Source: a virus. From it: DNA of 27,296 nt. The stretch is taken from positions 1 through 27,296 of the IMG/VR virus record IMGVR_UViG_3300043409_001380. One strand, written 5' to 3'. Position 1 is the first letter of the stretch; each line of letters opens with the position of its first letter. A program made the translations under genes and the position numbers. Positions 6,629-21,671 of the stretch are shown here, in pieces. The notes under the pieces were generated by a model. That model was not told where the DNA came from. It made no database searches and worked only from the letters and a program-made list of their open reading frames with translations.

Positions 6629-7549
6629 TGCGGCTTTCGTTGGTTTGTAATACCCCGCATCAATAGCTCTCTGAATTACAGAGCCAGGAACCGATTTCAC
6701 AGAGACAGGAAGTATCGAATCTTTGCAATTGTAGCCGCCTGCGAATATGAATATTGTAGCCTTATTCGTTGCGGAATTTCGGCCCTGCCACCCTTTAGAG
6801 TTTGGCCATTCAAGTCCGCAGCATGTTTCATTTTCACCCCAAAGTTCAATCTCTTTTTTGTGAAAATATTTACCACGCCTTTCATTGCAGAATGGCCGGG
6901 TGTCTTCTACTTCGACTCCTTGGTACTTATAGAATTGCAACCCAAGATCATTAGCGACTACATTTGTGTAGCTTCTATCTGACGCGGAGAACGCGTCATA
7001 GGCAATTCTTTTAACATAGCCTTGTAGCCTGCCGTCTACTTGGTCAGAGCCTTCTATGAAAGAGCGAAGTGATGAAAGTGTTTCAGTGAATGAAATTGAT
7101 GAATTAACACTACTCTGCAAGCTCTGTGTTATTGGGATAATTAATTGTTGACTGAATGAATCTTCTCCCAATAATGCTATTGCGTTTTTTTGAGAAGCCT
7201 CAAGGCTTAATTTATACACATCCTTGTTGTCGAATTTATCGGATAGCTCTGTAAAGTATGCGTTATTTAAGTTCGCCTGTTGCTTGAATTGCGAGATATA
7301 CTTTGTCAGCTCACTAGTATATTCGTCGTTAAATATTGTTTCTTTTAGCTTTTTTTCAATAGAGTTTATTAAAGAGAGGTTTTTTTCGTTTAATAAAAAA
7401 GTCTCCCCATCCCTGTCGAGGCTAAATATTATTGACTCTATATCTGCCATTACGCCCTTCTGAGTCTTTCCGATAGCATTTACGAATCTATCAGGTATGC
7501 TTTCAAGTCTCGATAACTTCTCTTTTATAATATCGTCAATCCTTGCCAT
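6626..7549 (-). CDS. MuF-like minor head protein
   Basis: The 307-residue protein has a helical N-terminal two-thirds. Its C-terminal domain (about residues 205-295) carries the pattern of the Mu gpF/SPP1 gp7 family: DTRPFCNERRGKYFHKKEIE, then GLEWPNSKGWQGR, then FAGGYNCKDSILPVS. These proteins sit inside the head near the portal and can be ejected with DNA. The gene starts in a TAATG overlap with the portal stop, so the two are translationally coupled. The usual His after the conserved GGYNC is a Lys here. No toxin domain is fused. Confidence 0.75.
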   Translation of the reverse strand: MARIDDIIKEKLSRLESIPDRFVNAIGKTQKGVMADIESIIFSLDRDGETFLLNEKNLSLINSIEKKLKETIFNDEYTSELTKYISQFKQQANLNNAYFTELSDKFDNKDVYKLSLEASQKNAIALLGEDSFSQQLIIPITQSLQSSVNSSISFTETLSSLRSFIEGSDQVDGRLQGYVKRIAYDAFSASDRSYTNVVANDLGLQFYKYQGVEVEDTRPFCNERRGKYFHKKEIELWGENETCCGLEWPNSKGWQGRNSATNKATIFIFAGGYNCKDSILPVSVKSVPGSVIQRAIDAGYYKPTKAA

Positions 7550-9366
7550 TACTCTGCATTTGCATTAGCTAGTATACTGTCTGGTTTTATCGCTTTTGCT
7601 GAAATCTCGTTAGCATAACTTTTCGCCTTATCCACTAGGATAGTATACCTCTCTTCGTTTGAAAGCTCCATAAAATTCTCGTTAAGACTTATCTGATGCT
7701 CAATGAATGAATATATTGAAGTGTGCAGAATATCTTCCCAGTTAGCAATACTCCCAGACGCTTTCTTGTTGGCAATTTCCAAGCTTGACAATGTTGCTAG
7801 TCTGTCGGTGAAGAAAACAAGGTCAATTACATCTTTGATATTTTCTTGAGCACTAAATCGTGTTGACAAGTACTCTTCAATAAGCTCTCTTATGATAATA
7901 TCGGGCATTCCTTTTTCTTTAGCGGCTGCAATCTCGCTTGTTAAGTCCTCTTCGTTTCTGATGGCGAAGTTTTTTGGATACGCTAAAGTAGGAGGCTCTG
8001 CGTTTTTCCCATAACGCATTTTCTGGATAGTCATTAGACTGAACTCGAACAATGAAAATACTTGTCCCGAAATTTTAAGCAAGAAAGAAAACATCTGCTC
8101 TCTATCTATCTGTTTCCCTAACGCTGTATCACTGCCTTTTACGTCAGAGCTAGAATCTGACAGGTTTAATATAGCAGCCCCATTCGCTATGTGCTTGTCA
8201 ATTTCTTCTCTCAAGAATCTTGGACTCTCAATGTCTGGCTGAATGAATCCACCCGGAGTTCCTTGTAGTTGAGTCGGGTTTAAAGAGTCTGGAACTGGAA
8301 TTTGTATGCTTTCAAATGGAGATAAACTTCTTGCAAATCCTGAACCATTGCAAGACGGACATACGTGATCTTTCCCGCTTGATGTTCTTATGATTCCTCG
8401 ATCGCATATCCCGTCATTGTCTTGATACTCGCACTTTGTAGCGTACTCCCACCACTTTGGAAATGCATGACGTGCCTTAGAAACAGTTAAGTATCCATTG
8501 TCTAGCAAGGCTAAATCCAAGTGTTCACAGGCTGGGGCAAAATGAGATTTATATAATATATTTCTGTCTTTTACCTTTGGCCTTGCCTTCAATTTTGTGC
8601 ACGGTAGAAATTCTAAGTCGTGCCTATAATAAAGGATAACCTCGAAATTATAGTCTTCTTTCTCTCCAACCTGATTAACCTTATATATAGCTACCTGATC
8701 ATAAAATTCGTACATAAGACCTTCTATAACCGTCTTATCTGCTTTTTTAACAGGCGATTTTTCTGGCAGCTCAATCAGGCAGAAATTCCCTTCTTTAAAA
8801 TCTATCACTCTTTCACACCCATATATATGAGCTATAGGATTTATCATGATTGATTCATCAAAAGATAAGCTCCCATCCGAATTTTCTACTGTTGGAATTT
8901 CTTGAGGATAATGAACTAGTACAGCGTTTGGGTCTTTCTCTTTTGTGTCAGTTACTATGTCTTTGTAGTACTCTTCTAGTGAACCTCCAACAGGATAATA
9001 TTTTTCAAAATAAGCCTGAGGTGATGCATCATTGAATTTTGAATCTACCTTTCCCCAGTTCTGAATAGACCAGTTTTTGTCATTCCAAATTCTAGCTATA
9101 GCAGAGGTGAATTTATCCCAAACTATATAAGTTATTGCTTTGTGATTAGCCCGCATGTAATCAAGCTCTTTTTGAGTTTGATTTGGGGACCGGTTAATAT
9201 ACAGGTCCTCTGGAAATACGTCCTCGTCGCTGTGTACGGCTATCCTTTTCTTATACTTTATGGCATCAAGATAGCCTTCGTTAAACTGAATAGGCTTGTC
9301 CTTTTTGCCCTTGTACAAGACCGCCTTATCCTTGGTTAATTTAAGTATTTCCTGTTCGGTGAACAT
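7549..9366 (-). CDS. Portal protein with a four-cysteine insertion
   Basis: I chose the ATG at 9366 (605 residues), because it forms a TAATG overlap with a tiny upstream frame and the only earlier start is a TTG. Portal-like features are the N-terminal approach (residues 30-150 with NRSPNQTQ and ITYIVWDKFTSAIARIW), a central beta region, and a long helical C-terminal half. The C-terminal half includes a segment, KGSDTALGKQIDREQMFSFL, that resembles the portal stem/crown region. Its position before the MuF-like gene and its length agree. An insertion at residues 312-339 has cysteines spaced C-x8-C-x14-C-x2-C (CPSCNGSGF), which resembles a zinc ribbon of the DnaJ CxxCxGxG type. The same gene order and domain are seen in uncultured Bacteroidetes phages as far as I recall. 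Confidence 0.75.
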   Translation of the reverse strand: MFTEQEILKLTKDKAVLYKGKKDKPIQFNEGYLDAIKYKKRIAVHSDEDVFPEDLYINRSPNQTQKELDYMRANHKAITYIVWDKFTSAIARIWNDKNWSIQNWGKVDSKFNDASPQAYFEKYYPVGGSLEEYYKDIVTDTKEKDPNAVLVHYPQEIPTVENSDGSLSFDESIMINPIAHIYGCERVIDFKEGNFCLIELPEKSPVKKADKTVIEGLMYEFYDQVAIYKVNQVGEKEDYNFEVILYYRHDLEFLPCTKLKARPKVKDRNILYKSHFAPACEHLDLALLDNGYLTVSKARHAFPKWWEYATKCEYQDNDGICDRGIIRTSSGKDHVCPSCNGSGFARSLSPFESIQIPVPDSLNPTQLQGTPGGFIQPDIESPRFLREEIDKHIANGAAILNLSDSSSDVKGSDTALGKQIDREQMFSFLLKISGQVFSLFEFSLMTIQKMRYGKNAEPPTLAYPKNFAIRNEEDLTSEIAAAKEKGMPDIIIRELIEEYLSTRFSAQENIKDVIDLVFFTDRLATLSSLEIANKKASGSIANWEDILHTSIYSFIEHQISLNENFMELSNEERYTILVDKAKSYANEISAKAIKPDSILANANAE

Positions 9367-9428
9367 TATCTTTTTGGTTTTGTCGGCTTTGGTCTTGAGC
9401 AAGACGAGCAAGCTTTTTTATTTTTCAT
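9366..9428 (-). CDS. Tiny coupled ORF, 20 aa, CxxC motif
   Basis: An ATG six bases after the methyltransferase stop opens a 20-codon frame. It ends in TAATG exactly at the portal start, so it fills the gap completely. The peptide MKNKKACSSCSRPKPTKPKR is basic with one CxxC pair, and a CxxC-K/R-P pattern also opens the protein encoded at 21671. It may be a real small protein or just a translational leader that delivers ribosomes to the portal gene. Confidence 0.4.
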   Translation of the reverse strand: MKNKKACSSCSRPKPTKPKR

Positions 9429-9433
9429 TTTAT

Positions 9434-10102
9434 TTATTTTTTTGGGTTGCAAATAATGTCCATCTGATACTCCTCTAATCCTTGGCCTTTATATATGTTA
9501 CTGTATTCATAACCAATAGAGCTAAGAAGATTATATATATCTGATCTTTTAATTCCAATCCTATCGAGAGTCATTTTATTAATCTCTATTAGCATGGTTG
9601 GCATGAATTTTTTAATAGTAGATAGCCCACCCCTTAATACTTCAAGCTCAAATCCCTCGCAATCTATTTTGACGAAATCAAGCGCGAACAAATCTAAATC
9701 GTCAATTGTCGTTATTGACACGTCAGTTCCATCTGTAAGGAAATTCATGCCGTCATTTCCTTTTATCTTCTTAATACCGGCCCTTCCTATTTCACTGCCT
9801 AACCCTTGATTAAAACATGTTACATTAGGATATTTCCTCATGTTTAATTGTAGGCATTCAAAGGCTTCTTTGCTAGGTTCAAAAGCAAATACAAACCCGT
9901 CTAATCCGGTAGCTTTAGAATAGGCCGCTGTGTGATCACCTATGTACGCTCCAACATCAAGAATTGTATCTCCTTTTTTTATGTGAGCTAAAATTAATGG
10001 CAGCATACTTTGATCGTGGTCAAGTCTGCCCGATTCTTTAACCCACTTAGAGATACATTCATCTCCGGGAAGTATTGCTATTCCGCTACGTGTGAAATTC
10101 AT
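9434..10102 (-). CDS. FkbM-family SAM-dependent methyltransferase
   Basis: The 222-residue protein carries the Rossmann methyltransferase motif I ILDVGAYIGDHT (about residues 47-58), the acidic end of strand 2 (FAFEPS, Glu75), and the FkbM hallmark DFVKIDCEGFELEVLRGG (about residues 142-159). Length matches the family. FkbM enzymes methylate sugars or sugar-bearing substrates. Here it closes a run of three glycosyltransferases, so it probably O-methylates the glycan they build. The tight gene packing with the structural genes on both sides implies late expression. It could act on a host surface polysaccharide or on glycosylated virion protein. Confidence 0.85.
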   Translation of the reverse strand: MNFTRSGIAILPGDECISKWVKESGRLDHDQSMLPLILAHIKKGDTILDVGAYIGDHTAAYSKATGLDGFVFAFEPSKEAFECLQLNMRKYPNVTCFNQGLGSEIGRAGIKKIKGNDGMNFLTDGTDVSITTIDDLDLFALDFVKIDCEGFELEVLRGGLSTIKKFMPTMLIEINKMTLDRIGIKRSDIYNLLSSIGYEYSNIYKGQGLEEYQMDIICNPKK

Positions 10103-10214
10103 TTACTGCGCCATTTGTTATGAATATATCTCCCTGCTCTTTGATATTTTGCTTCTCCCTTTTTATCATTCCGATAGCAAGGAAAAGGCTCACATTGTTA
10201 TAATTTTTTTTCAT
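10086..10214 (-). CDS. Small coupled ORF, 42 aa
   Basis: The ATG at 10214 overlaps the TGA of the upstream glycosyltransferase as ATGA. The 42-codon frame overlaps the methyltransferase start by 17 bases, so it bridges an otherwise unexplained 108-base gap. The peptide begins MKKNYNNVSLFLAIGMIK and is followed by a charged segment (REKQNIKEQGDIF). I recognise no family. The coupling on both sides argues that it is translated. Its role, if any, in glycan modification is unknown. Confidence 0.5.
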   Translation of the reverse strand: MKKNYNNVSLFLAIGMIKREKQNIKEQGDIFITNGAVNEFHT

Positions 10215-10924
10215 AAACCAGCCTCCTCCAATTCTTTTTTAATATCTCCAGTGATTCCACCCCAAGACCATTTTTGCTTTATGTAATCATTACCGCATCC
10301 TTCTTTTTCGGTATCTTTTATTACGTATAAATCGTTTTCGTTTATGTCTGCAAACGCTCCAAGGTAGTTGAACTCACTAAAATGCCTGCCTGGCTGTGAC
10401 ATTACGTATTCGCTAACCTCCTTGTCATGCTTTAGTCTTATGAACAAGCTGGCATCTTGTAGTGTTCTTCTCATGAACACCATAGGCATTCTCCTCATGT
10501 ATTCATAAGCAACCTCTGCCCCTACCGTATTCTCTGTAATTCCCTTCCATACAATAGCATCTCCGACTCTTTCGTATCTTGTTTTGTAAAGTATTGGCTT
10601 TCCGTTTTCAAAAATCTCTTCTTGAAGATTTGTTTTTCTTGTGAAATGACAATCCGAGTCAATAAATACTATACACTCTGCATTACTATATTTGTAAGCC
10701 TCTATCTTGCTTACTTGTTGCCCCAAATAATCCTCTTTGTACACCGGACATGTTACTATTTTCTCGGCGGTTAAATTCCAGTTGTCCAATAGTTTCTTTT
10801 GAGTCTCAGGTATGCAGACAATAATATCTCTGTACCCTGTCGCATACTTATGAATTGATCTAAGGCAGTATTTTAGCCATTCTAAGTCTTTCTCGTATGT
10901 TCTAATGAATATATCCGTAGTCAT
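10211..10924 (-). CDS. GT-A-type glycosyltransferase, third of the cassette
   Basis: The 237-residue protein begins MTTDIFIRTYEKDLEWLKYC, typical of GT-A nucleotide-sugar transferases of the DUF6492-like kind. It carries a DxD metal-binding motif in CIVFIDSDCHF (Asp89-Ser-Asp91). A candidate catalytic/acceptor region lies around residues 170-225 (RHFSEFNYLGAFAD, GNDYIKQKWSWGG). It overlaps the upstream transferase by four bases and a small downstream frame by four bases. The sugar donor and acceptor cannot be read from sequence. A host-cell-surface glycan or a virion protein are both possible. Confidence 0.7.
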   Translation of the reverse strand: MTTDIFIRTYEKDLEWLKYCLRSIHKYATGYRDIIVCIPETQKKLLDNWNLTAEKIVTCPVYKEDYLGQQVSKIEAYKYSNAECIVFIDSDCHFTRKTNLQEEIFENGKPILYKTRYERVGDAIVWKGITENTVGAEVAYEYMRRMPMVFMRRTLQDASLFIRLKHDKEVSEYVMSQPGRHFSEFNYLGAFADINENDLYVIKDTEKEGCGNDYIKQKWSWGGITGDIKKELEEAGL

Positions 10925-11631
10925 TTCTTTATACTTTCTATGATCTTTTGAAATACATAACTGCTCATTCTTGACACATCTCTAAAGCCTGCTATCTTCT
11001 TTTCTCTGCAACTCACTTCGCCTCTAAAGATTTCACCAGTCGCGAGCCAATTTTCTGTAGAATATTGAGCGCCGTGCGATCTGTGGTACAAGTACGGCTC
11101 CTGTATTTTGAAAACAGGAACTTTTGACAAGATTGACTGATATGGTATCCAGAAGTCCCAGAAGCATTGCCCCATACACAATACCGATTGAGGGAATATG
11201 TGTAACCATTTTTTGTTTATGAAAAACCCGTCAAATCCTTGTTCATACTTCTTTCCTTCCGATAGATCGTTTTCAAAGTCGTATCTATTTATTATTACAA
11301 TTCCTTCTTTAGAGATCGACTTTAAATACTCTGCTTGATTGCCTGAATCCTTTATGATGACATCAGAGTTAATAATAAGAACACATTCTTCATCCAATTC
11401 TTTTGCATAATCAATGATCGCAGATATTAGCACATACGGCTTCTTAAATAAAACCTCATTGGTGCGCGATGTTTCTACGAAATCGACCTCTACAAAACCT
11501 TTTAGCGCCTCAATCTCTTCTTTTGAATTTAAACTCACCACCTTATATCCAGCTTCAATCCACGAATTGATAGCATCGAATTGGCTTTGAAAATTAGCGT
11601 GACTTGGCGATATGCTCGTGATCGCAATCAT
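10921..11631 (-). CDS. Putative glycosyltransferase, second of the cassette
   Basis: The 236-residue protein opens MIAITSISPSHANFQSQFDA, a GT-A-like first strand with a nucleotide-binding loop, and has a hydrophobic strand ending in a variant DxD, LIINSDVIIKD (about residues 85-95; NSD instead of DxD). The segment FDGFFINKKWLHIFPQSV and the aromatic run CFWDFWIPYQ resemble acceptor-side regions of glycosyltransferases that act on surface polysaccharides. ATGA overlaps join it to the genes on both sides. The family is less certain than for its neighbours, because the metal motif is degenerate. Confidence 0.6.
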   Translation of the reverse strand: MIAITSISPSHANFQSQFDAINSWIEAGYKVVSLNSKEEIEALKGFVEVDFVETSRTNEVLFKKPYVLISAIIDYAKELDEECVLIINSDVIIKDSGNQAEYLKSISKEGIVIINRYDFENDLSEGKKYEQGFDGFFINKKWLHIFPQSVLCMGQCFWDFWIPYQSILSKVPVFKIQEPYLYHRSHGAQYSTENWLATGEIFRGEVSCREKKIAGFRDVSRMSSYVFQKIIESIKK

Positions 11632-12464
11632 TTTAATGCGTGGAATTTATTTCTGTACAGATGTGCGCCTTTTGCCGCTAAGCTAACACCGCTCTTGTTC
11701 ATTATAGAAGAAAGATGCCTATCATATAAGTCTATAGAATAAGGCCTTGATAGCCCAAACCCTCCATACTGGCTGAGTATGTAATACTTTTCAAATATCT
11801 CAGATGTAGGTACTTTGACATGCGGGTAAAATATTGGCTGTACACTTCTGTCGGGCATTATATTGAGTTGCGCAAGAGCTACCGAGAAATATAGCTCGTC
11901 TGGGTGGCTCGAGCTTCTACCCCATTGCGATATATACTGATCTCTTGAAAGTGCTTTCTTATAATTAATTCTCGCCTGATCAAACACCTTGTTGTTCTCA
12001 AAGTAGATAATAGAGGTTTGCGAAGCTGGAAGTGTCGCCAATTCATCAAGCTCGAAATGATGCCAGATAGTTTCATTTGTCGCCCATATAGAATAGTCTA
12101 TTTTATCTTTCTTGCCTCCAGCGTCAACTATTTGTGCGTAAAATTCGCTTCCTGATAACAAGTCAAATATAGGGTCGATATTTTTCAAGCATACACCATC
12201 AACATCTAAGTATAATGTCTTGTCGAATGGTGTGTACTTGTCAATATTAATCTTATTCTTAGCATAATCGTAATGGCCGTCTATTCTTTTTTCTGGATCA
12301 AACGTAATAATGCGATCAAATACGGAAGCGTCTACCCCCTCCGTATTTTCGCATAACAAACATATTGGTATAGCAGAAAAGTATTTTATGGAAAATGCCA
12401 TGTTATAGGCGTATTTTAAATACGCCTTATCGCCATACGCCATCAATAAAATGCCTTTATTCAT
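11628..12464 (-). CDS. Glycosyltransferase (GT8-like), first of the cassette
   Basis: The 278-residue protein has a GT-A N-terminus (MNKGILLMAYGDKAYLKYAY) and a clear DxD motif in TLYLDVDGVCLKNIDPIF (Asp87-Val-Asp89), as in GT8 retaining transferases. A later ELYFSVALAQLNIMPDRSVQ segment fits the acceptor-binding part. The gene starts nine bases after the upstream virion gene and overlaps the next transferase by four bases, so it is probably transcribed together with the structural genes. The donor is probably a UDP-hexose, by family analogy only. Confidence 0.7.
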   Translation of the reverse strand: MNKGILLMAYGDKAYLKYAYNMAFSIKYFSAIPICLLCENTEGVDASVFDRIITFDPEKRIDGHYDYAKNKINIDKYTPFDKTLYLDVDGVCLKNIDPIFDLLSGSEFYAQIVDAGGKKDKIDYSIWATNETIWHHFELDELATLPASQTSIIYFENNKVFDQARINYKKALSRDQYISQWGRSSSHPDELYFSVALAQLNIMPDRSVQPIFYPHVKVPTSEIFEKYYILSQYGGFGLSRPYSIDLYDRHLSSIMNKSGVSLAAKGAHLYRNKFHALK

Positions 12465-13167: not shown

Positions 13168-13788
13168 ATGAAAAAACTAATTGTTATCTATTTGCTGTCA
13201 ATCTCAATTTCGTCTTATTCGCAGTCCGATTTTTCAATCGGCGCGTCTATTGGTGTTGGTAAAACATTAATGGCTGCTCCTTTTGGATATAGCGGGTTTA
13301 CCTCCTATAGGGCTGGAGTTGTAGCGCAATATAATATTGTAAGCTTTTTAAGCGCAGTTACTGAAATTGGAACTGAGTCATACGCTATAAGAAAACAAAA
13401 TACTATTGCTGGTAATAAGATTGAAAACATTGAGCGCTTTACAACTATAGACGTACCTGTAATGGCTAAATTTTCTACAGGGGAAAATATCAAGCCTTAT
13501 TTTTCTTTTGGAGTTGGTCCATCTTTTTTGCTTTCTGCAAAAGGATTTTCAAAGGGAGCCGACAACATTCCGGGGTCCACTAGTAATCCAGACGCTAAGA
13601 CAGATGTTTCAGAAAAATATAATTCTACTTATTGGTCGCTTTATTCTGTTGCCGGGGTAGACCTTAAAGGCGAAAAAGTAATTCCTTTCATTGAGTTTAA
13701 ATTAAAGCACTCTATTACTGACGTTGCGCCAGCTTTTGTATACAGTCCACTAAATTCGATAACGGCTAATATCGGATTCCGTTTCTAG
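13168..13788 (+). CDS. Outer-membrane beta-barrel protein (PorT/OMP_b-brl-like), moron gene
   Basis: The 206-residue protein starts with a Sec signal peptide (MKKLIVIYLLSISISSYSQ, cleavage after the Ser-Gln-type end). It continues with alternating amphipathic strands such as FSIGASIGVGKTLM, VVAQYNIVSFLSAVTEIG, YFSFGVGPSFLLSAKG and a final strand ending GFRF, the aromatic C-terminus needed for insertion by BAM. It resembles the eight-stranded OMP_b-brl/PorT family common in Bacteroidetes genomes. It is the only plus-strand gene and has its own promoter. It converges on a virion gene, and the two stop codons share one CTAG. It was probably acquired from a host. It may alter the surface, for example to block superinfection, or serve lysogenic conversion. 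Confidence 0.75.
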   Translation: MKKLIVIYLLSISISSYSQSDFSIGASIGVGKTLMAAPFGYSGFTSYRAGVVAQYNIVSFLSAVTEIGTESYAIRKQNTIAGNKIENIERFTTIDVPVMAKFSTGENIKPYFSFGVGPSFLLSAKGFSKGADNIPGSTSNPDAKTDVSEKYNSTYWSLYSVAGVDLKGEKVIPFIEFKLKHSITDVAPAFVYSPLNSITANIGFRF

Positions 13789-15598: not shown

Positions 15599-17867
15599 AA
15601 GCTCTCAATAATTTAAATGTACCTATTCCGTATACTGGCTTATATCTAATTTCTATGATGTATCCCTTTATAAATCCAGTATCACTTTCAGAAACTTCTA
15701 TACATCCGAATGGACTGTTTTTTATAGCCAAGTACTCCGAGAATTTCAAAGGGTATTCAAAATCTATATATTCCGGCACCCATATTGGATCACCGTTTAC
15801 GTTTGGACTATCCCATATAATATCTTGTCCCTCGTCAAATGTCTGGTTGTTATAATTGCCGTCGCATGTATTGCTGGAGTCCATATCGGAGGTCATTGTA
15901 TAATTGCCCTCGCCATAGACAAGCTTAATAGCACGGCCCGCAAACTTATATATGCTGCCCGATACAGTTCTCAGGTGTCTAAGCATATTCCTTGCCGGAG
16001 ATATTCTTAGATTATACGATGTTTCAGGGCTAATAACATTTGTTACCGAATCGAAATTTTCATTCTTCTCTACAATGTCCATCTGGCTTGGATTACCAGA
16101 CCCATCTACACCTCTTGCGGTGCAGATAATAAAGTTGTCCTTGTCAAAGTTAGAGTCAACAGTTGAGACGCCTTTTCTTCTTGTTAATTCTATTGAATAC
16201 ATAGATGCGATAGATGGAGATAGCTTGCTCCTCCTTGACTCTATTGCCTTTATTCCTGTGTTATACTGCCGCTGGGTATTAAATTCGTCTAGGCCGTTTA
16301 TATTTTCAGTCTCCCATTTTTCGTATCCTATCGTAACGTCAGAGGTGTAATATTCTTTTGCGGAGCTTATCTTTATCGTCGCTCTGGGACATTGCATTAT
16401 TACATCTTGACTATAGTAAGAATCCTTGCGATCTATCTTAACAAGATATTGGCTATCTTCTTTTACTACCGACAACCCACAATCAGAGATGCTGTCTATT
16501 GTCTTATAGTAATCTCGCATCGACATGAATAGCGGCGATCTGTCTACCCCGAATCCTCTTATATGCTTCCCGTTCACCATACCAGCGAATGATAGGCATC
16601 CATTAGATGGATAAGTATGAATAGCTGTATTTCTTCTGCCTAATAATTCGCTTCTGAACGAATCGTTTTGGCCTGATATTCTTTGAGCAATAGCAGAGCC
16701 AACTTCGTGAATCTTAAAGAATACAGAAGACGAAGGGTCGGTCACGTTTACATTTTTAATGGAAAACTTAAACACCGACGCGGTGAATGAGTTTACAGTA
16801 AATGTACTCGGAGCTACATTGTTGCCCTTTACGTCACTAACCAGCATTGTAAAGAATACCTTGTCACCACTGGCAATCGTGTGTGAGGCAGCATAGTTTA
16901 TTGAAATCGGAATATTTAACCCTGTTACTGTTAATCCTGTTATATTTTGCAATATTATCGCCTCTGGAACGTAAGCAAATTGAACTCCGTACGGTTGTAG
17001 GTATACTTTTATTTGTGTTGCTCCAGGAGTCACAGACCCCAAGGTGTTGTTAATAGCAAGGTTAGCAGTTATGTTAATATTGAAATCAAGCGTTATTGGA
17101 GCTCCAGTCGTATTTTCAAATATTGGCGGAGTAGCATCATATCCGCGCGGGCTGCCACTTTGAAAGAATGTAAAAGCAAGTGGTGGAAGTGAGTCGTTAG
17201 CACCTCCAATATCGTCAGATATTACCACCATTGGAATGTTTACGTTGACTGAGTCATTTGGATTTATAATAGCACAGGCATCTGTAGTATCATATTCAGC
17301 CCATTCGGTTTTCAATACGAGAGCTTTTGAGTGAAGCGTTATGTCGCTTGGGAATCCCGCTATTGGCGACAATTCGTTTCCGTCCAAGTCTTCATTCCTT
17401 GTTATCTCAACCGTAGTTTCTAACCTGTTTATTATTTTCTGAATAAAATCAGATTGAATAATATCTGTAACGGTGGAGTTTCTTGTTTGGCTATAATTCT
17501 CAAGATTTAGCACACCTTCGTATAGCGTCTCAAATAATGGCAAGCTAGAATCATTCAATGTTGATCCATAGTCGTCCGAATAGTCTACCGAATAATCAGG
17601 AGCATTTTGGCTTTCGGAGGCTGTAGTGCAGGAAATCTGTATAGTTAAGAAAACCTGCGCGTCTACCCCATACTCTCTGATAGCCTTGTCTATATACTCT
17701 TTGCCAGAGCTGCACGTGAACGCAAGCTGTGCCATTGCCTCATTGAATATCCCATGATACTCAAGACTTCTTTTGAAAAGAAACTCAACATCCTTCCATC
17801 CGTCTGGCTCTCTTTTTAAAACCAGCACCCCATAAGGCTCGCTATTTAATATGAATCTAAATCTCAT
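15588..17867 (-). CDS. Large distal-tail / baseplate hub protein, 759 aa
   Basis: It overlaps the tape-measure stop by four bases (ATGA), the usual place of distal-tail or hub proteins. The N-terminal 90 residues (MRFRFILNSEPYGVLVLKRE, GWKDVEFLFKRSLEYHGIF) form a family signature that I have seen in Bacteroidetes phages as an N-terminal tail-tip domain. The middle is composed of beta-strand repeats with Thr/Asn/Ala. The last 150 residues include MLRHLRTVSGSIYKFAGRAI and FIKGYIIEIRYKPVYGIG. No peptidase or lysozyme motif is visible. The role, joining the tail tube to the host-facing fibres, is inferred from position and size. Confidence 0.65.
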   Translation of the reverse strand: MRFRFILNSEPYGVLVLKREPDGWKDVEFLFKRSLEYHGIFNEAMAQLAFTCSSGKEYIDKAIREYGVDAQVFLTIQISCTTASESQNAPDYSVDYSDDYGSTLNDSSLPLFETLYEGVLNLENYSQTRNSTVTDIIQSDFIQKIINRLETTVEITRNEDLDGNELSPIAGFPSDITLHSKALVLKTEWAEYDTTDACAIINPNDSVNVNIPMVVISDDIGGANDSLPPLAFTFFQSGSPRGYDATPPIFENTTGAPITLDFNINITANLAINNTLGSVTPGATQIKVYLQPYGVQFAYVPEAIILQNITGLTVTGLNIPISINYAASHTIASGDKVFFTMLVSDVKGNNVAPSTFTVNSFTASVFKFSIKNVNVTDPSSSVFFKIHEVGSAIAQRISGQNDSFRSELLGRRNTAIHTYPSNGCLSFAGMVNGKHIRGFGVDRSPLFMSMRDYYKTIDSISDCGLSVVKEDSQYLVKIDRKDSYYSQDVIMQCPRATIKISSAKEYYTSDVTIGYEKWETENINGLDEFNTQRQYNTGIKAIESRRSKLSPSIASMYSIELTRRKGVSTVDSNFDKDNFIICTARGVDGSGNPSQMDIVEKNENFDSVTNVISPETSYNLRISPARNMLRHLRTVSGSIYKFAGRAIKLVYGEGNYTMTSDMDSSNTCDGNYNNQTFDEGQDIIWDSPNVNGDPIWVPEYIDFEYPLKFSEYLAIKNSPFGCIEVSESDTGFIKGYIIEIRYKPVYGIGTFKLLRAYAN

Positions 17868-20284
17868 GAGAATAGCTTTGAATTAAAGTAGCGCTCTCTA
17901 GCAACAGCACCAGCAAGATCAGATATATTCTTGATCGACACTGAATTGTTTTTCCTCAAATAAGATTCTATCTTAGAGGTATCGAAATTATTCACCTCTC
18001 TATTTCTGGATTCTCTCTTGGCTCTCTCTCTATTTTTAGCCCTTACCTCGTTCTCGTGTCTGTGTATGGCTGGAACTACGAAAGCAGAATTAATATACTT
18101 GTCTGCTGTGCCATTATTAATATTCTCGATCAGTTTATCATGCCTACTAGATTGTCGTCTATTTACAACCCATTCACCATCCTCAGCCTCGATCATCGTT
18201 CCTCCTTTGGAGTGTCTATTACCTTTAACCTTGCCGCCTTTTTCAAATTTCGGAGCCGGCTGAGCAGATATTACTGCCGCCTGAGCCAGCCCAGCGGCAG
18301 CAGCAAGTGCCGCGCCCAATACTCCTCCTATCGGGCCAAGTTGGGCGAATGCTTTTACTATTGAGGTCGCTGTGTCAATAGCGACCTGTATGAGTGCAGC
18401 TTTCTTGTTTGCCTCGAATTGCTTTCTCTTGATCTCTGCCTCTTTTTCGCTTTGCTTTTTTTCAAGAGCTATTTTTCTTTGGTTGAATTGATCTTGCGAA
18501 ATAACCCCGTTATCAAGTTGCGTTTGTAAATCTTCTTGCTTTCTTTCAGTCTCTAATCTACTATTGTTAAGCTCCTGATCAAGGTCTGTCTGTCTGTTCT
18601 GCGCTGCAATATCAGCGAATCCAGTAGCTAACTCATTGGCTATTGCAAAGCCTGTTTCTTTTATCGCACCAATTTTCTTCTGTTGTTCTTTTTCTTGCTC
18701 TTCTTCTTTCTTCCTTCTTTCGTCCGAAAGGCGCTCCTCCTCTTTGAGTCGCTCTTCTAGGCTGGCTAAAAAATCATCGTTGGCCTTCTTCTTGATAGCC
18801 GCAGCTTCTTTACTCTGCTTATCGAGATTAGCTAATTGTAAATCAAGAATTGCCTTGTCTATATCAACTACGTCTCGGCTCTCTTTTACGAGCAATTCCT
18901 TTTGATCAATCAGCCCTTTAAGCTTTATATTGTAAAGCTCTTGCTCTAGTTCTTCGGCAGAGGTAACGCCAGCTAGAAAATTCGCCTTGGCTACATTTTC
19001 TTGTAATACTTCTTGTTGAGAAATTCTCTTTACCTGATTCTGGAATATCTCTTCTAACTTAGCGTCTCTCCTATTGTTTACTTTTTCAAGAAGGTTATCG
19101 GATGCTTGTTGTATTGCGGTTATCTTGTTTATCTGATCTACCTCCTCTTGCGCTGAGTCATCATTGATAGACCTCAGCTCTTTAAGTATCGCCTTTTTCC
19201 TACTAGCAGATGTCTCTAAGGCAACTAATTCATCTGTTAGGTTTTTCTTTTCTTGATTTATCGACTCTCTTTCTCTTTGGTTTCGCTCTTGAATAAGCTT
19301 TAATTTCTCTTTTTCGTTAGCCAGTGTAATAGCAAGGTTTTGTTTTTCAAGCTTAGTAGCCTGATCCAAGAATTCAAGCGACTTTTCGTCTTCTATATTT
19401 TTGTTCCTAGAGGCGATTACAAGCTTTGTTATTGCAGCATCATTTTGAGCCAAAAGTTTTGATTCCTCACGAATCTTATCTTGTAGAGTGTCCATTCTTT
19501 GCTCCCACTCGAAAGCTGCGGCTGCGGCTTCTGTCGCTCTATCTATAAACCCCTCTGTTTTTTTTGTAATATCTGTTATGCCGGTGGCCATCTGAGTAGT
19601 GGCATCAATAAATCTTTTGCCAGCAGCCTCAAAGTTCCCCCCAATAGCAAGCTGTAAAGCCTCAAATGCGACAATTGGAGCTTTAAGTCTATTGAGTAAA
19701 TTGTTTACTATAAAATCACCAAGGTCGGATAGACCTTTCTTGAAGTTGTCTATACTTGTGAATGAATCGAAAACCGCCTCACCAAGCCCGATAACAATCC
19801 CTGTCACCAAGTCTGTAGCCGCTCCGAGTGCGCCCATTATTCCGGCCAGCCTTGTAGCTCCTTCGTCTGTTCTTTTGAAATAGGAAATAAGGCCTATTAT
19901 AGCGATTACCAAAGCTCCTATTCCTGTGCCAATTATGGCAATCTTTAAAGCTTTGAATCCACCTGTAGAAGTTTGCGCTGCACCTCCTAAGCCAGTAATA
20001 GCAGAGCCTAATTGTGTGACCTGTTGAATTTGTCCTGCAAATGGTAGTTGACCTGCTATGTCCTTGAGCTTATCGGAAAGCGCTGAAACCTTCTTTGTCT
20101 GCCCCTCTGTGGCATCGCTAAGCTTCTTTACTTGCTTAGTTTGATCGGAATAAGCTTTTGATCCTTCTCTTGTTGATTTCTTGGCAATAGCATCAGCCTC
20201 GAGGAGTGTTTTCTCGTATCTTTCTAAGTTTTCTTGACTCTTTTCTATATCAAGCCTATAGGCTACTACTATTTCATCCGACAT
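17864..20284 (-). CDS. Tail tape-measure protein
   Basis: This is the longest gene of the window, 806 residues. The N-terminal 90 residues are coiled coil (LERYEKTLLEADAIAKK). A hydrophobic segment near 115-135 (IAIIGTGIGALVIAIIGLIS) is followed by a long Glu/Lys/Gln coiled coil from about 255 to 640. A second Gly/Ala hydrophobic stretch (GPIGGVLGAALAAAAGLAQA) lies near 675-695, then a basic tail. This is the usual tape-measure composition. It starts 11 bases inside the end of the frameshifted chaperone frame and overlaps the distal-tail gene by four bases. If 1.5 angstrom per residue holds, the tail would be near 120 nm. Tail-tip release functions are not visible. Confidence 0.9.
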   Translation of the reverse strand: MSDEIVVAYRLDIEKSQENLERYEKTLLEADAIAKKSTREGSKAYSDQTKQVKKLSDATEGQTKKVSALSDKLKDIAGQLPFAGQIQQVTQLGSAITGLGGAAQTSTGGFKALKIAIIGTGIGALVIAIIGLISYFKRTDEGATRLAGIMGALGAATDLVTGIVIGLGEAVFDSFTSIDNFKKGLSDLGDFIVNNLLNRLKAPIVAFEALQLAIGGNFEAAGKRFIDATTQMATGITDITKKTEGFIDRATEAAAAAFEWEQRMDTLQDKIREESKLLAQNDAAITKLVIASRNKNIEDEKSLEFLDQATKLEKQNLAITLANEKEKLKLIQERNQRERESINQEKKNLTDELVALETSASRKKAILKELRSINDDSAQEEVDQINKITAIQQASDNLLEKVNNRRDAKLEEIFQNQVKRISQQEVLQENVAKANFLAGVTSAEELEQELYNIKLKGLIDQKELLVKESRDVVDIDKAILDLQLANLDKQSKEAAAIKKKANDDFLASLEERLKEEERLSDERRKKEEEQEKEQQKKIGAIKETGFAIANELATGFADIAAQNRQTDLDQELNNSRLETERKQEDLQTQLDNGVISQDQFNQRKIALEKKQSEKEAEIKRKQFEANKKAALIQVAIDTATSIVKAFAQLGPIGGVLGAALAAAAGLAQAAVISAQPAPKFEKGGKVKGNRHSKGGTMIEAEDGEWVVNRRQSSRHDKLIENINNGTADKYINSAFVVPAIHRHENEVRAKNRERAKRESRNREVNNFDTSKIESYLRKNNSVSIKNISDLAGAVARERYFNSKLFS

Positions 20285-20516
20285 TCTTACTTTCCTCTAT
20301 TCTCTTTTTTAAAATAAATTCCATTAATCCATAGTAATTTCTGGTGCTCATTCTATTTATGACCTCCGCCTGTGAAGGTATGCCATTAGCAAGCATTAAT
20401 AATTCTTTATTATTAGCCTCTATGGTCATTGCAATTTCTGATCGGTGATATAATGTTGCATTTGCGCTTGAATTGCCTTCATTTTGATCTGCGATTTCAG
20501 AAAATATTCGCTCCAT
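20274..20516 (-). CDS. Second tail-chaperone frame (GT-like part reached by -1 frameshift)
   Basis: The frame has its own ATG at 20516 preceded by GGAG, but it is open upstream to a TGA located next to a run of eight T residues. A -1 shift at that run would fuse residues 1-160 of the upstream chaperone to 98 residues of this frame (20570-20274), giving 258 residues in total. Its C-terminal part (NNKELLMLANGIPSQAEVIN) is helical and precedes the tape-measure start with an 11-base overlap, exactly as for lambda G/GT-type pairs. Independent initiation at 20516 would give an 80-residue protein and cannot be excluded. Confidence 0.7.
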   Translation of the reverse strand: MERIFSEIADQNEGNSSANATLYHRSEIAMTIEANNKELLMLANGIPSQAEVINRMSTRNYYGLMEFILKKRIEESKNVG

Positions 20517-21049
20517 TCTGTCTCCGATATTCCTAAGAAGGGTATGAACTCGATCAACCCGGCTGTGTAAAAAAAATCACGCAGCCCCCCTGTGCTGTCT
20601 TTTTTAAACTGCTCAATCTTTTCTAGGTGGATTTCCATATCAACTACACAAGGGTCTTCGTCTTCTCGCACGTACATGAATGCGACAGTATCGAATAATA
20701 AGTCAACATCAGTCCAAGCATCTACCCTTCTCTCTATTTCCACGATTAGATGGCCTACCATTGCTACATCAGGATTCTTTCCCTTGTTAAGGGCTTTCTT
20801 CATCGCTTCGCAAAAGAGCTTAATGTTATCGTCTGACATCCCAGCCTTTAGCCTCATTATTCTAACTTGAAGCTCCTTGCTACGTTGTATAGGAAGTGAT
20901 AAGTCGCTATCAGTGGTGTAGTAAGCTTTCCCGTTGCTATCGATAAAGCAATGCCTCATCTGTTCAAAGCCTGTTCTCTTAGACTGCTCTAGGAAGTAGT
21001 GCTTTATAAATATTGGCTTGAGTATTTGGTAGATTAGCTTGCTTATCAT
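20426..21049 (-). CDS. Tail assembly chaperone, zero-frame product (G-like), 207 aa
   Basis: It sits directly upstream of the tape-measure gene, the expected place of the chaperone that coats the tape measure during tail assembly. The protein is helical throughout, with segments RSKELQVRIMRLKAGM and FCEAMKKALNKGKNPDVAMV. A hydrophobic/acidic middle contains VDMEIHLEKIEQFK. Translation reads through a T TTT TTT run at codons 158-160 (GAT TTT TTT) and continues for 47 residues after it. The frame start overlaps the upstream gene by four bases. The two overlapping frames are the strongest evidence for function, since the sequence itself has no signature residue. Confidence 0.75.
   Translation of the reverse strand: MISKLIYQILKPIFIKHYFLEQSKRTGFEQMRHCFIDSNGKAYYTTDSDLSLPIQRSKELQVRIMRLKAGMSDDNIKLFCEAMKKALNKGKNPDVAMVGHLIVEIERRVDAWTDVDLLFDTVAFMYVREDEDPCVVDMEIHLEKIEQFKKDSTGGLRDFFYTAGLIEFIPFLGISETEWSEYFLKSQIKMKAIQAQMQHYITDQKLQ
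20540..20576 (-). promoter_or_regulatory. Programmed -1 ribosomal frameshift site
   Basis: On the transcript strand the zero frame reads GAT TTT TTT TAC, which contains the canonical heptamer T TTT TTT (20576-20570). The -1 frame is closed by TGA immediately before this run and open from it to 20274. Nine bases downstream lies a hairpin with a seven-base-pair stem broken by one bulged base (GGGTTGA, loop TCGAGT, TCA-T-ACCC; 20560-20540), suitable as a stimulator. Position upstream of the tape measure fits tail-chaperone frameshifting in siphophages. Confidence 0.75.
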
Positions 21050-21366
21050 TTTAGTATCACCATTCCGTTATGCCTCATACAACCAGCGTCTTTAGCTGCA
21101 AAATAATCCTCATAAAACTTGTCAGTCCAGGTCTTCCAGTCATGCCGAAGGTTTATCTTAGCTTCTGGTAGCGCATAGTATTTTATAGCAATATTTTCTT
21201 TCGTTATTCTACTATGATCGTCATTGGTTTCGTTAAGAGTTATTCTTAAACTGAACTGTGAATTACATACCGTTGCCTTTAGTTCCAGTAGGTAGTTTAA
21301 TTCCCTATCTAAAGCGCAGTAGCACTTTCGCCAAAACTGCCAATTAACATCTTCTTGTCTTATCAT
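21046..21366 (-). CDS. Unknown virion-module protein, 106 aa
   Basis: I chose the ATG at 21366, which overlaps the stop of the upstream membrane protein as ATGA and has GGA a few bases upstream. An in-frame ATG seven codons earlier would only add residues that overlap the neighbour. The protein begins MIRQEDVNWQFWRKCYCALD and has a C-terminal part with YEDYFAAKDAGCMRHNGMVI. It looks mixed alpha/beta and soluble. No family is recognised. It overlaps the tail chaperone by four bases, so a tail-assembly role is possible by context. Confidence 0.5.
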   Translation of the reverse strand: MIRQEDVNWQFWRKCYCALDRELNYLLELKATVCNSQFSLRITLNETNDDHSRITKENIAIKYYALPEAKINLRHDWKTWTDKFYEDYFAAKDAGCMRHNGMVILK

Positions 21367-21671
21367 TTTTCCGTAATTAACAACCAAATTTTATTCACGA
21401 ATGCCACACAGAATAAAGTGGGTATCCATAGTATAAAAGCTTTTCCACAAGGCGCATTAAGTATCCAGTAGACAATACTACCCCAAAATGAGGCGTAACA
21501 AATCGGACATCCGAAAACAGGCATATACACCCATGAGAAAAATGATTTCTCGTGAAATATCCTATCTCCCAATGATCTCAATGAACTCAATAACATGCCA
21601 TCGCTAGTAACCGTGTGCCAGCCCATGCAGAATAGCGATATATAAAATATGTCAAGTAATTGCTCTATCAT
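21363..21671 (-). CDS. Small membrane protein with CxxC motif, 102 aa
   Basis: Three hydrophobic segments are visible: residues 5-20 (LLDIFYISLFCMGWH), 45-70 and 75-97 (FILWIPTLFCVAFVNKIW). The second contains GCPICYASFWGSIVYW, a pattern seen in a small membrane family of Bacteroidetes phages that recalls DUF1360-type CxxCxGxW proteins. The gene is coupled by TAATG to the upstream gene and by ATGA to the downstream one. It could be a holin-like or membrane-assembly protein, although holins are normally not placed among tail genes. The two cysteines suggest a metal or disulfide. Confidence 0.5.
   Translation of the reverse strand: MIEQLLDIFYISLFCMGWHTVTSDGMLLSSLRSLGDRIFHEKSFFSWVYMPVFGCPICYASFWGSIVYWILNAPCGKAFILWIPTLFCVAFVNKIWLLITEK

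Follow-up and report, generated by a model that had tools for sequence, protein, structure and literature searches.

A conserved T8 run preceded by a stem-loop as a likely -1 frameshift site in putative tail chaperone genes of an uncultured virus family

Analysis of a virus record of 27,296 bases, referred to here as the window, supported on sequence evidence a -1 shift at a T8 run in a gene pair at the tail-chaperone position, and the conserved signal accompanying the run lies upstream of it, not downstream. The slip at the T run is very likely real, since both the run and an upstream stem-loop have been kept in twelve related viruses. The account as a whole, i.e. a G-like chaperone gene of a Bacteroidota phage with a ribosomal -1 slip at U_UUU_UUU and an upstream signal that tunes it, is regarded as probable.

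Gene pair and proposed slip site

The gene pair, the T run, the hairpins and the tape-measure gene are all located on the minus strand of the window (Table 1). Zero-frame codons 158-161 read GAT TTT TTT TAC, and a back-slip of one base after Phe160 leads to a predicted fusion of 258 residues (160+98), versus 207 residues for the unshifted product. After the T run, the -1 frame is open to the TGA at 20276-20274 and so overlaps the ATG of the tape-measure gene (20284). The zero frame in turn continues for 47 residues beyond the slip (residues 161-207), and this extension is conserved, with a helix at residues 176-202 in the predicted fold. The order in which the pair adjoins the tape-measure gene is common to L002, L007 and L013-L017.

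An earlier note, made from the window sequence, had described the heptamer T_TTT_TTT in the zero frame with a TGA closing the -1 frame just before it, a -1 frame open as far as the tape-measure gene, 47 zero-frame residues past the slip, and a junction peptide ...RDFF-LHSR.... All of its sequence statements hold against the coordinates and translations, including the predicted junction; the strand (minus) had gone unstated there.

Table 1. Features of the proposed frameshift locus, in coordinates of the window.
Feature	Position	Strand	Remarks
G-like zero-frame ORF, proposed tail assembly chaperone	20426..21049	-	207 aa, directly before tape-measure gene
Upstream stem-loop	20581..20598	-	5-bp stem, 20598-20594 with 20585-20581; ends 4 nt before T run
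SD-like purine tract AGGGGGG	20585..20591	-	Mostly in the loop of the stem-loop; 8 nt before T run
TGA closing the -1 frame directly 5' of T run	20577..20579	-	
T8 run, putative slip site	20569..20576	-	Heptamer T_TTT_TTT at 20576-20570, zero frame
T-like -1-frame extension	20274..20570	-	98 residues after the slip and stop; conserved in relatives
Downstream hairpin	20540..20560	-	7 bp with one bulge, 9 nt past run; not conserved, probably incidental
Internal ATG of the -1 frame	20514..20516	-	Not conserved; GGAG at 20525-20522, 5 nt before it
Tape-measure protein gene	17864..20284	-	806 aa; PHROG tail length tape measure, E 3.8e-14

Coding of the -1 frame

No stop codon interrupted the -1 frame of the 40-codon overlap in any of 12 genomes, compared with 65 stops in +1, and in the 48 codons 5' of the run the -1 frame of these genomes held 62. 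Of 48-codon windows taken from other ORFs, only 1.6% were open in -1. Inside the overlap, the amino-acid identity of the -1 product (31%) was hardly higher than that of control frames (29%), and the case for -1 coding in the overlap therefore rests on the open frame together with the -1 protein, which is conserved in relatives past the zero-frame stop. The proposal of the earlier note that both frames are coding beyond the slip is supported. Conservation of the -1 frame begins with the residue that directly follows the T run, which places it upstream of the internal ATG. The second frame thus appears to be coding and would be made as a fusion, having no conserved start of its own.

Conservation of the T run in related genomes

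When used alone as a query, the 207-aa window protein gave no match in viral contigs or phage records, and a first genome scan with a G profile likewise gave none. Relatives were reached by way of a 75%-identical terminase, which led to L002, and subsequently by terminase and profile searches, which yielded nine further members (L007, L011, L013-L017, L025 and L027). A degenerate DNA pattern permitting TTC at both Phe codons, run against 2.9 million contigs, matched 11 stretches, comprising the ten known members and one new member, L036. Protein identity of these eleven relatives to the window was ca. 44-51%.

The T8 run was present in all 12 family genomes (the window and 11 relatives) at the identical residue and in the identical phase, although nucleotide identity before the slip site falls to 52% among the family. 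The distant relatives L018 (27% identity in the best segment) and L033 (31%) had T9 at the matching place. Loss of the run in homologues, named beforehand in the earlier note as the observation that would count against the shift, was accordingly looked for and found neither in the 11 members nor in these two.

If genome codon usage is taken into account, GAT TTT TTT would occur in all of 11 genomes with a naive probability of 7e-6, a figure of limited weight, because it ignores relatedness and because the other conserved Phe columns (28 and 35) are likewise always TTT, the commoner Phe codon (59-82%). Stronger evidence came from the depletion of T-runs elsewhere in coding sequence, where 10 runs of at least 7 were observed against ca. 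31 expected from synonymous shuffling in 11 family genomes, L018 and L033.

Sense-strand T-runs of at least 6 were depleted relative to synonymous shuffles in the window, its relatives, L018 and L033, and A-runs of 6-8 were not. As a separate observation, the codon of Tyr157, which immediately precedes the slip codons (alignment A8 column 43, window position 20579, minus strand), was always TAC in the 11 Tyr-bearing genomes, where TAC makes up only 23-45% of Tyr codons; the C of this TAC is not required by the proposed upstream stem.

Upstream stem-loop and purine tract

The upstream stem was found in the consensus fold of the family. Against a null of sequences with amino acids and codon usage preserved, no other local fold in the gene was as strong (Stouffer z -7.7, versus a gene mean of -0.4 and an sd of 1.4), and pair counts for the exact stem exceeded the synonymous expectation (z 6.1), with z-scores that treat as independent genomes that are not fully so. 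At pair 25-40 of the stem, nine genomes have C-G and three have U-A; at pair 28-37, five have C-G and two have U-A. The covariation score was higher than in all 500 shuffles and all slid versions of the stem. The third U-A case at pair 25-40, in L036, came to light once the stem had already been proposed. On the G-protein tree, at least two changes are required to account for U-A, although strictly this leaves room for one origin. In the window, the outermost A-U pair of the stem is broken (A-C). The stem was not significant or absent in the distant L033 and L018, which suggests that the stem is a feature of the family and that the T run predates it.

The loop carries most of a purine tract resembling an SD sequence, which in other members reads AGGAGG and stands 9 nt before the run. 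An SD-like tract was present in 11/12 genomes, 8-10 nt before the run, the sequence being broken to AGGACGGG in L036; it was absent in the distant L018. The tract was the best anti-SD match in the gene, with a family mean of -11.2 kcal/mol versus a gene mean of -4.3, but lay only moderately beyond the synonymous-codon expectation (z about -3.3).

An intrinsic terminator was also considered and was rejected; the stem is separated from the run by 4 nt, and no minus-strand terminator-like site was called there.

Downstream of the run

The 7-bp hairpin described in the earlier note does exist in the window, but a part for it as a stimulator is not supported, as folding here is at the level of shuffles and the hairpin is not conserved. 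The 71-nt stretch downstream of the run folded no better than shuffles (window z +0.97), and the z-scores of relatives lay between -1.3 and +0.9. Cells of the downstream hairpin paired in 65% across the family, versus up to 63% in slid versions, and the consensus fold left the stretch unpaired, with no conserved pairs. A stable conserved structure 5-9 nt downstream, which is the classic criterion of -1 PRF, was thus not found, 11 genomes folding at shuffle level.

Proposed tail-chaperone identity and neighbouring genes

Searches of Pfam and PHROG with the G and T proteins gave no confident match. The predicted fold of the G protein (pLDDT 81) gave no match with E < 0.001 in either PDB or BFVD; the HK97 tail chaperone 2ob9 scored Z 2.9, which is weak and at noise level, and several tail chaperones were among the weak BFVD matches. 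The model of the T part was predicted with pLDDT 77 and pTM 0.43. Among isolated phages, Leeuwenhoekiella phage Arctus_1, Tenacibaculum phage JQ and Rhodobacteraceae phage MD05 carry a related tail protein and were tried as comparisons, and were set aside; the genes before their tape measures are ordinary overlapping genes, and no slippery run was present in these overlaps.

Three glycosyltransferase-like genes and an FkbM-type methyltransferase gene occupy window positions 9434-12464 (minus strand), flanked by the tail genes on one side and by the presumed genes for portal (7549-9411) and capsid on the other. The order of the late genes is unusual, in that the tail genes stand between terminase and portal. 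A gene at 21363-21671 (minus strand) encodes a small protein, apparently embedded in the membrane and bearing a conserved GCPIC-like motif, and across the family it is kept between the terminase and G genes. Amid the minus-strand late genes, a lone plus-strand gene at 13168-13788 encodes an outer-membrane beta-barrel protein (PF13568), possibly host-derived cargo.

Host and initiation signals

The phage host is probably a member of Bacteroidota. The distant relative L033 is located in a Bacteroidetes MAG, and family PF13568 was found in the records of the window, L015 and L036 and, among 14 control genomes, only in Bacteroides. Gene starts in the window and L002 showed no SD enrichment over shuffles, nor did those of most relatives. 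In Bacteroidota the anti-SD is sequestered by bS21, bS18 and bS6, and prfB keeps an SD-like frameshift element (PMC8710568); the absence of SD at the phage starts fits such a host. An SD-like stimulator would be unexpected in these phages, as their starts lack SD and their probable host hides the anti-SD.

Mechanism and alternative explanations

Ribosomal slippage is the most likely cause of the shift, and transcriptional slippage at T8 is a live rival. A minority of ribosomes with two tRNA-Phe on U_UUU_UUU would move back by one base and read on in the -1 frame, giving the GT-like fusion of 258 aa, and the remainder would yield the protein of 207 aa. The upstream stem-loop, melted by the elongating ribosome, may either keep the G:GT ratio low or make the purine tract available to that ribosome, and the ratio itself would be set by pairing of the tract with 16S rRNA or by the stem refolding behind the ribosome. 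SD elements further upstream stimulate -1 frameshifting (PMC4066793). Upstream hairpins, however, attenuated it in tested systems including 70S (PMC6321510), so the upstream stem may not be a stimulator. The more specific proposal, that the shift is tuned or driven by an upstream stem-loop presenting its SD-like loop to elongating ribosomes in an SD-blind Bacteroidota lineage, is put forward as a tentative possibility.

Programmed transcriptional slippage, in which RNA polymerase adds one U (or drops two) within T8, would lead to the same fusion, with the upstream stem-loop as a nascent-RNA hairpin at the polymerase exit; we consider this unlikely, though deserving serious weight. Mass spectrometry cannot separate a ribosomal -1 slip from one added U, as both give DFFLHSR. 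The run is a pure T homopolymer in 12/12 genomes and never T_TTT_TTC, although the latter keeps the slippery heptamer and is silent in both frames, but the absence of TTC is weak evidence, given the invariable TTT of the two other conserved Phe columns. The T9 of the distant relatives has the length of known polymerase slippage, RNA polymerase slip sites being known as runs of nine A or T (PMC5009743), whereas T8 is one short of this usual threshold. The position of the upstream stem, about where a nascent hairpin could form, and the depletion of T-runs elsewhere in coding sequence also agree with polymerase slippage; the SD-like tract, by contrast, would have no role in it, and the studied tail-gene cases are nearly all ribosomal (PMC5009743). 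In favour of the ribosome over the polymerase are the purine tract and, as a precedent, the tail genes of lambda type.

Two further explanations dispense with slippage altogether. Dual initiation had been raised in the earlier note from the internal ATG and its GGAG, both of which are present in the window, and a separate 80-aa product from ATG 20516 would make the -1-frame protein with no slip. Start-like codons occur at this place in 5/12 genomes, being TTG in L007, L013 and L017 and GTG in L036, but ATG is restricted to the window, and in L002, L025 and L027 the 160 nt that follow the run contain none of ATG, GTG and TTG, so the conserved route would be the shift and not a second start. Internal initiation is improbable also in view of the -1-frame conservation upstream of this ATG and of the start sites of the family phages, mostly without SD enrichment, which also weakened the idea of dual initiation. 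Still less probable is that there is no recoding, the T8 run and the open -1 frame being by-products of the conserved peptide DFFY and AT-rich codon usage: DFFY is indeed highly conserved and TTT the commoner Phe codon, but this leaves aside the stop-free -1 frame, its protein conserved beyond the zero-frame stop, and the upstream synonymous sites chosen for pairing.

Relation to known frameshift systems

A -1 frameshift in tail genes is known from many tailed phages, and the tail-assembly frameshift of dsDNA phages is conserved according to Levin 1993 and Xu, Hendrix and Duda 2004, as cited in PMC5009743. What is new in the window family is the upstream stem-loop with its SD-like loop, the host context, and the fact that no downstream structure is conserved. 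As in lambda G/GT, the gene lies directly before the tape measure and has a short zero-frame product, a -1 fusion and a slippery heptamer, so that in position and coding the window pair agrees, as judged from sequence, with the lambda frameshift. Unlike lambda G/GT, the window gene has no detectable sequence relation to it, its slip site is U_UUU_UUU, 47 zero-frame residues follow the slip, and an upstream stem-loop with a purine loop is present. In phage P2, the E/E+E' frameshift takes place at T_TTT_TTG in tail chaperone genes, and the two frames overlap at length. The window shares with P2 the T-rich heptamer in tail chaperone genes and the long overlap, whereas its protein is of a different family and the P2 heptamer ends in G; we know of no upstream stem-loop of such a kind in P2 E/E+E'.

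Among cellular genes, E. coli dnaX likewise has an SD-like tract, there a stimulator, upstream of its -1 frameshift heptamer at similar spacing (PMC5009743, PMC4066793), but it also has a downstream stem-loop, whereas the window family has no conserved one and carries its purine tract in the loop of an upstream hairpin. An SD-like element kept at a frameshift site where ribosomes hide the anti-SD is also found in prfB of Bacteroidia (PMC8710568), although prfB is a cellular gene whose shift is +1 and takes place at a stop codon, and the window would shift -1 in a phage tail gene. Upstream hairpins whose refolding modulates frameshifting are similarly placed just 5' of the slip site; in test systems they attenuate -1 frameshifting (PMC6321510, PMC3639245). 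Transcriptional slippage at the T9 of Thermus dnaX (PMC5009743) resembles the window in its homopolymeric T run and in products in two frames, and differs in that the window has T8, not T9, together with an SD-like tract.

Biological significance

The results add an uncultured virus family with a well-conserved predicted tail-gene frameshift, which was not named by the annotation libraries used, and the long overlap, with both frames open and conserved, makes it a good case of dual coding. They also move attention from the downstream hairpin to the upstream element. If this element acts via the anti-SD, it would be a compact natural probe of SD pairing during elongation by SD-blind Bacteroidota ribosomes, a question remaining from the work on prfB of Flavobacterium johnsoniae. 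If the proposal is true, either the hidden anti-SD or a refolding upstream hairpin would act in elongation in Bacteroidota.
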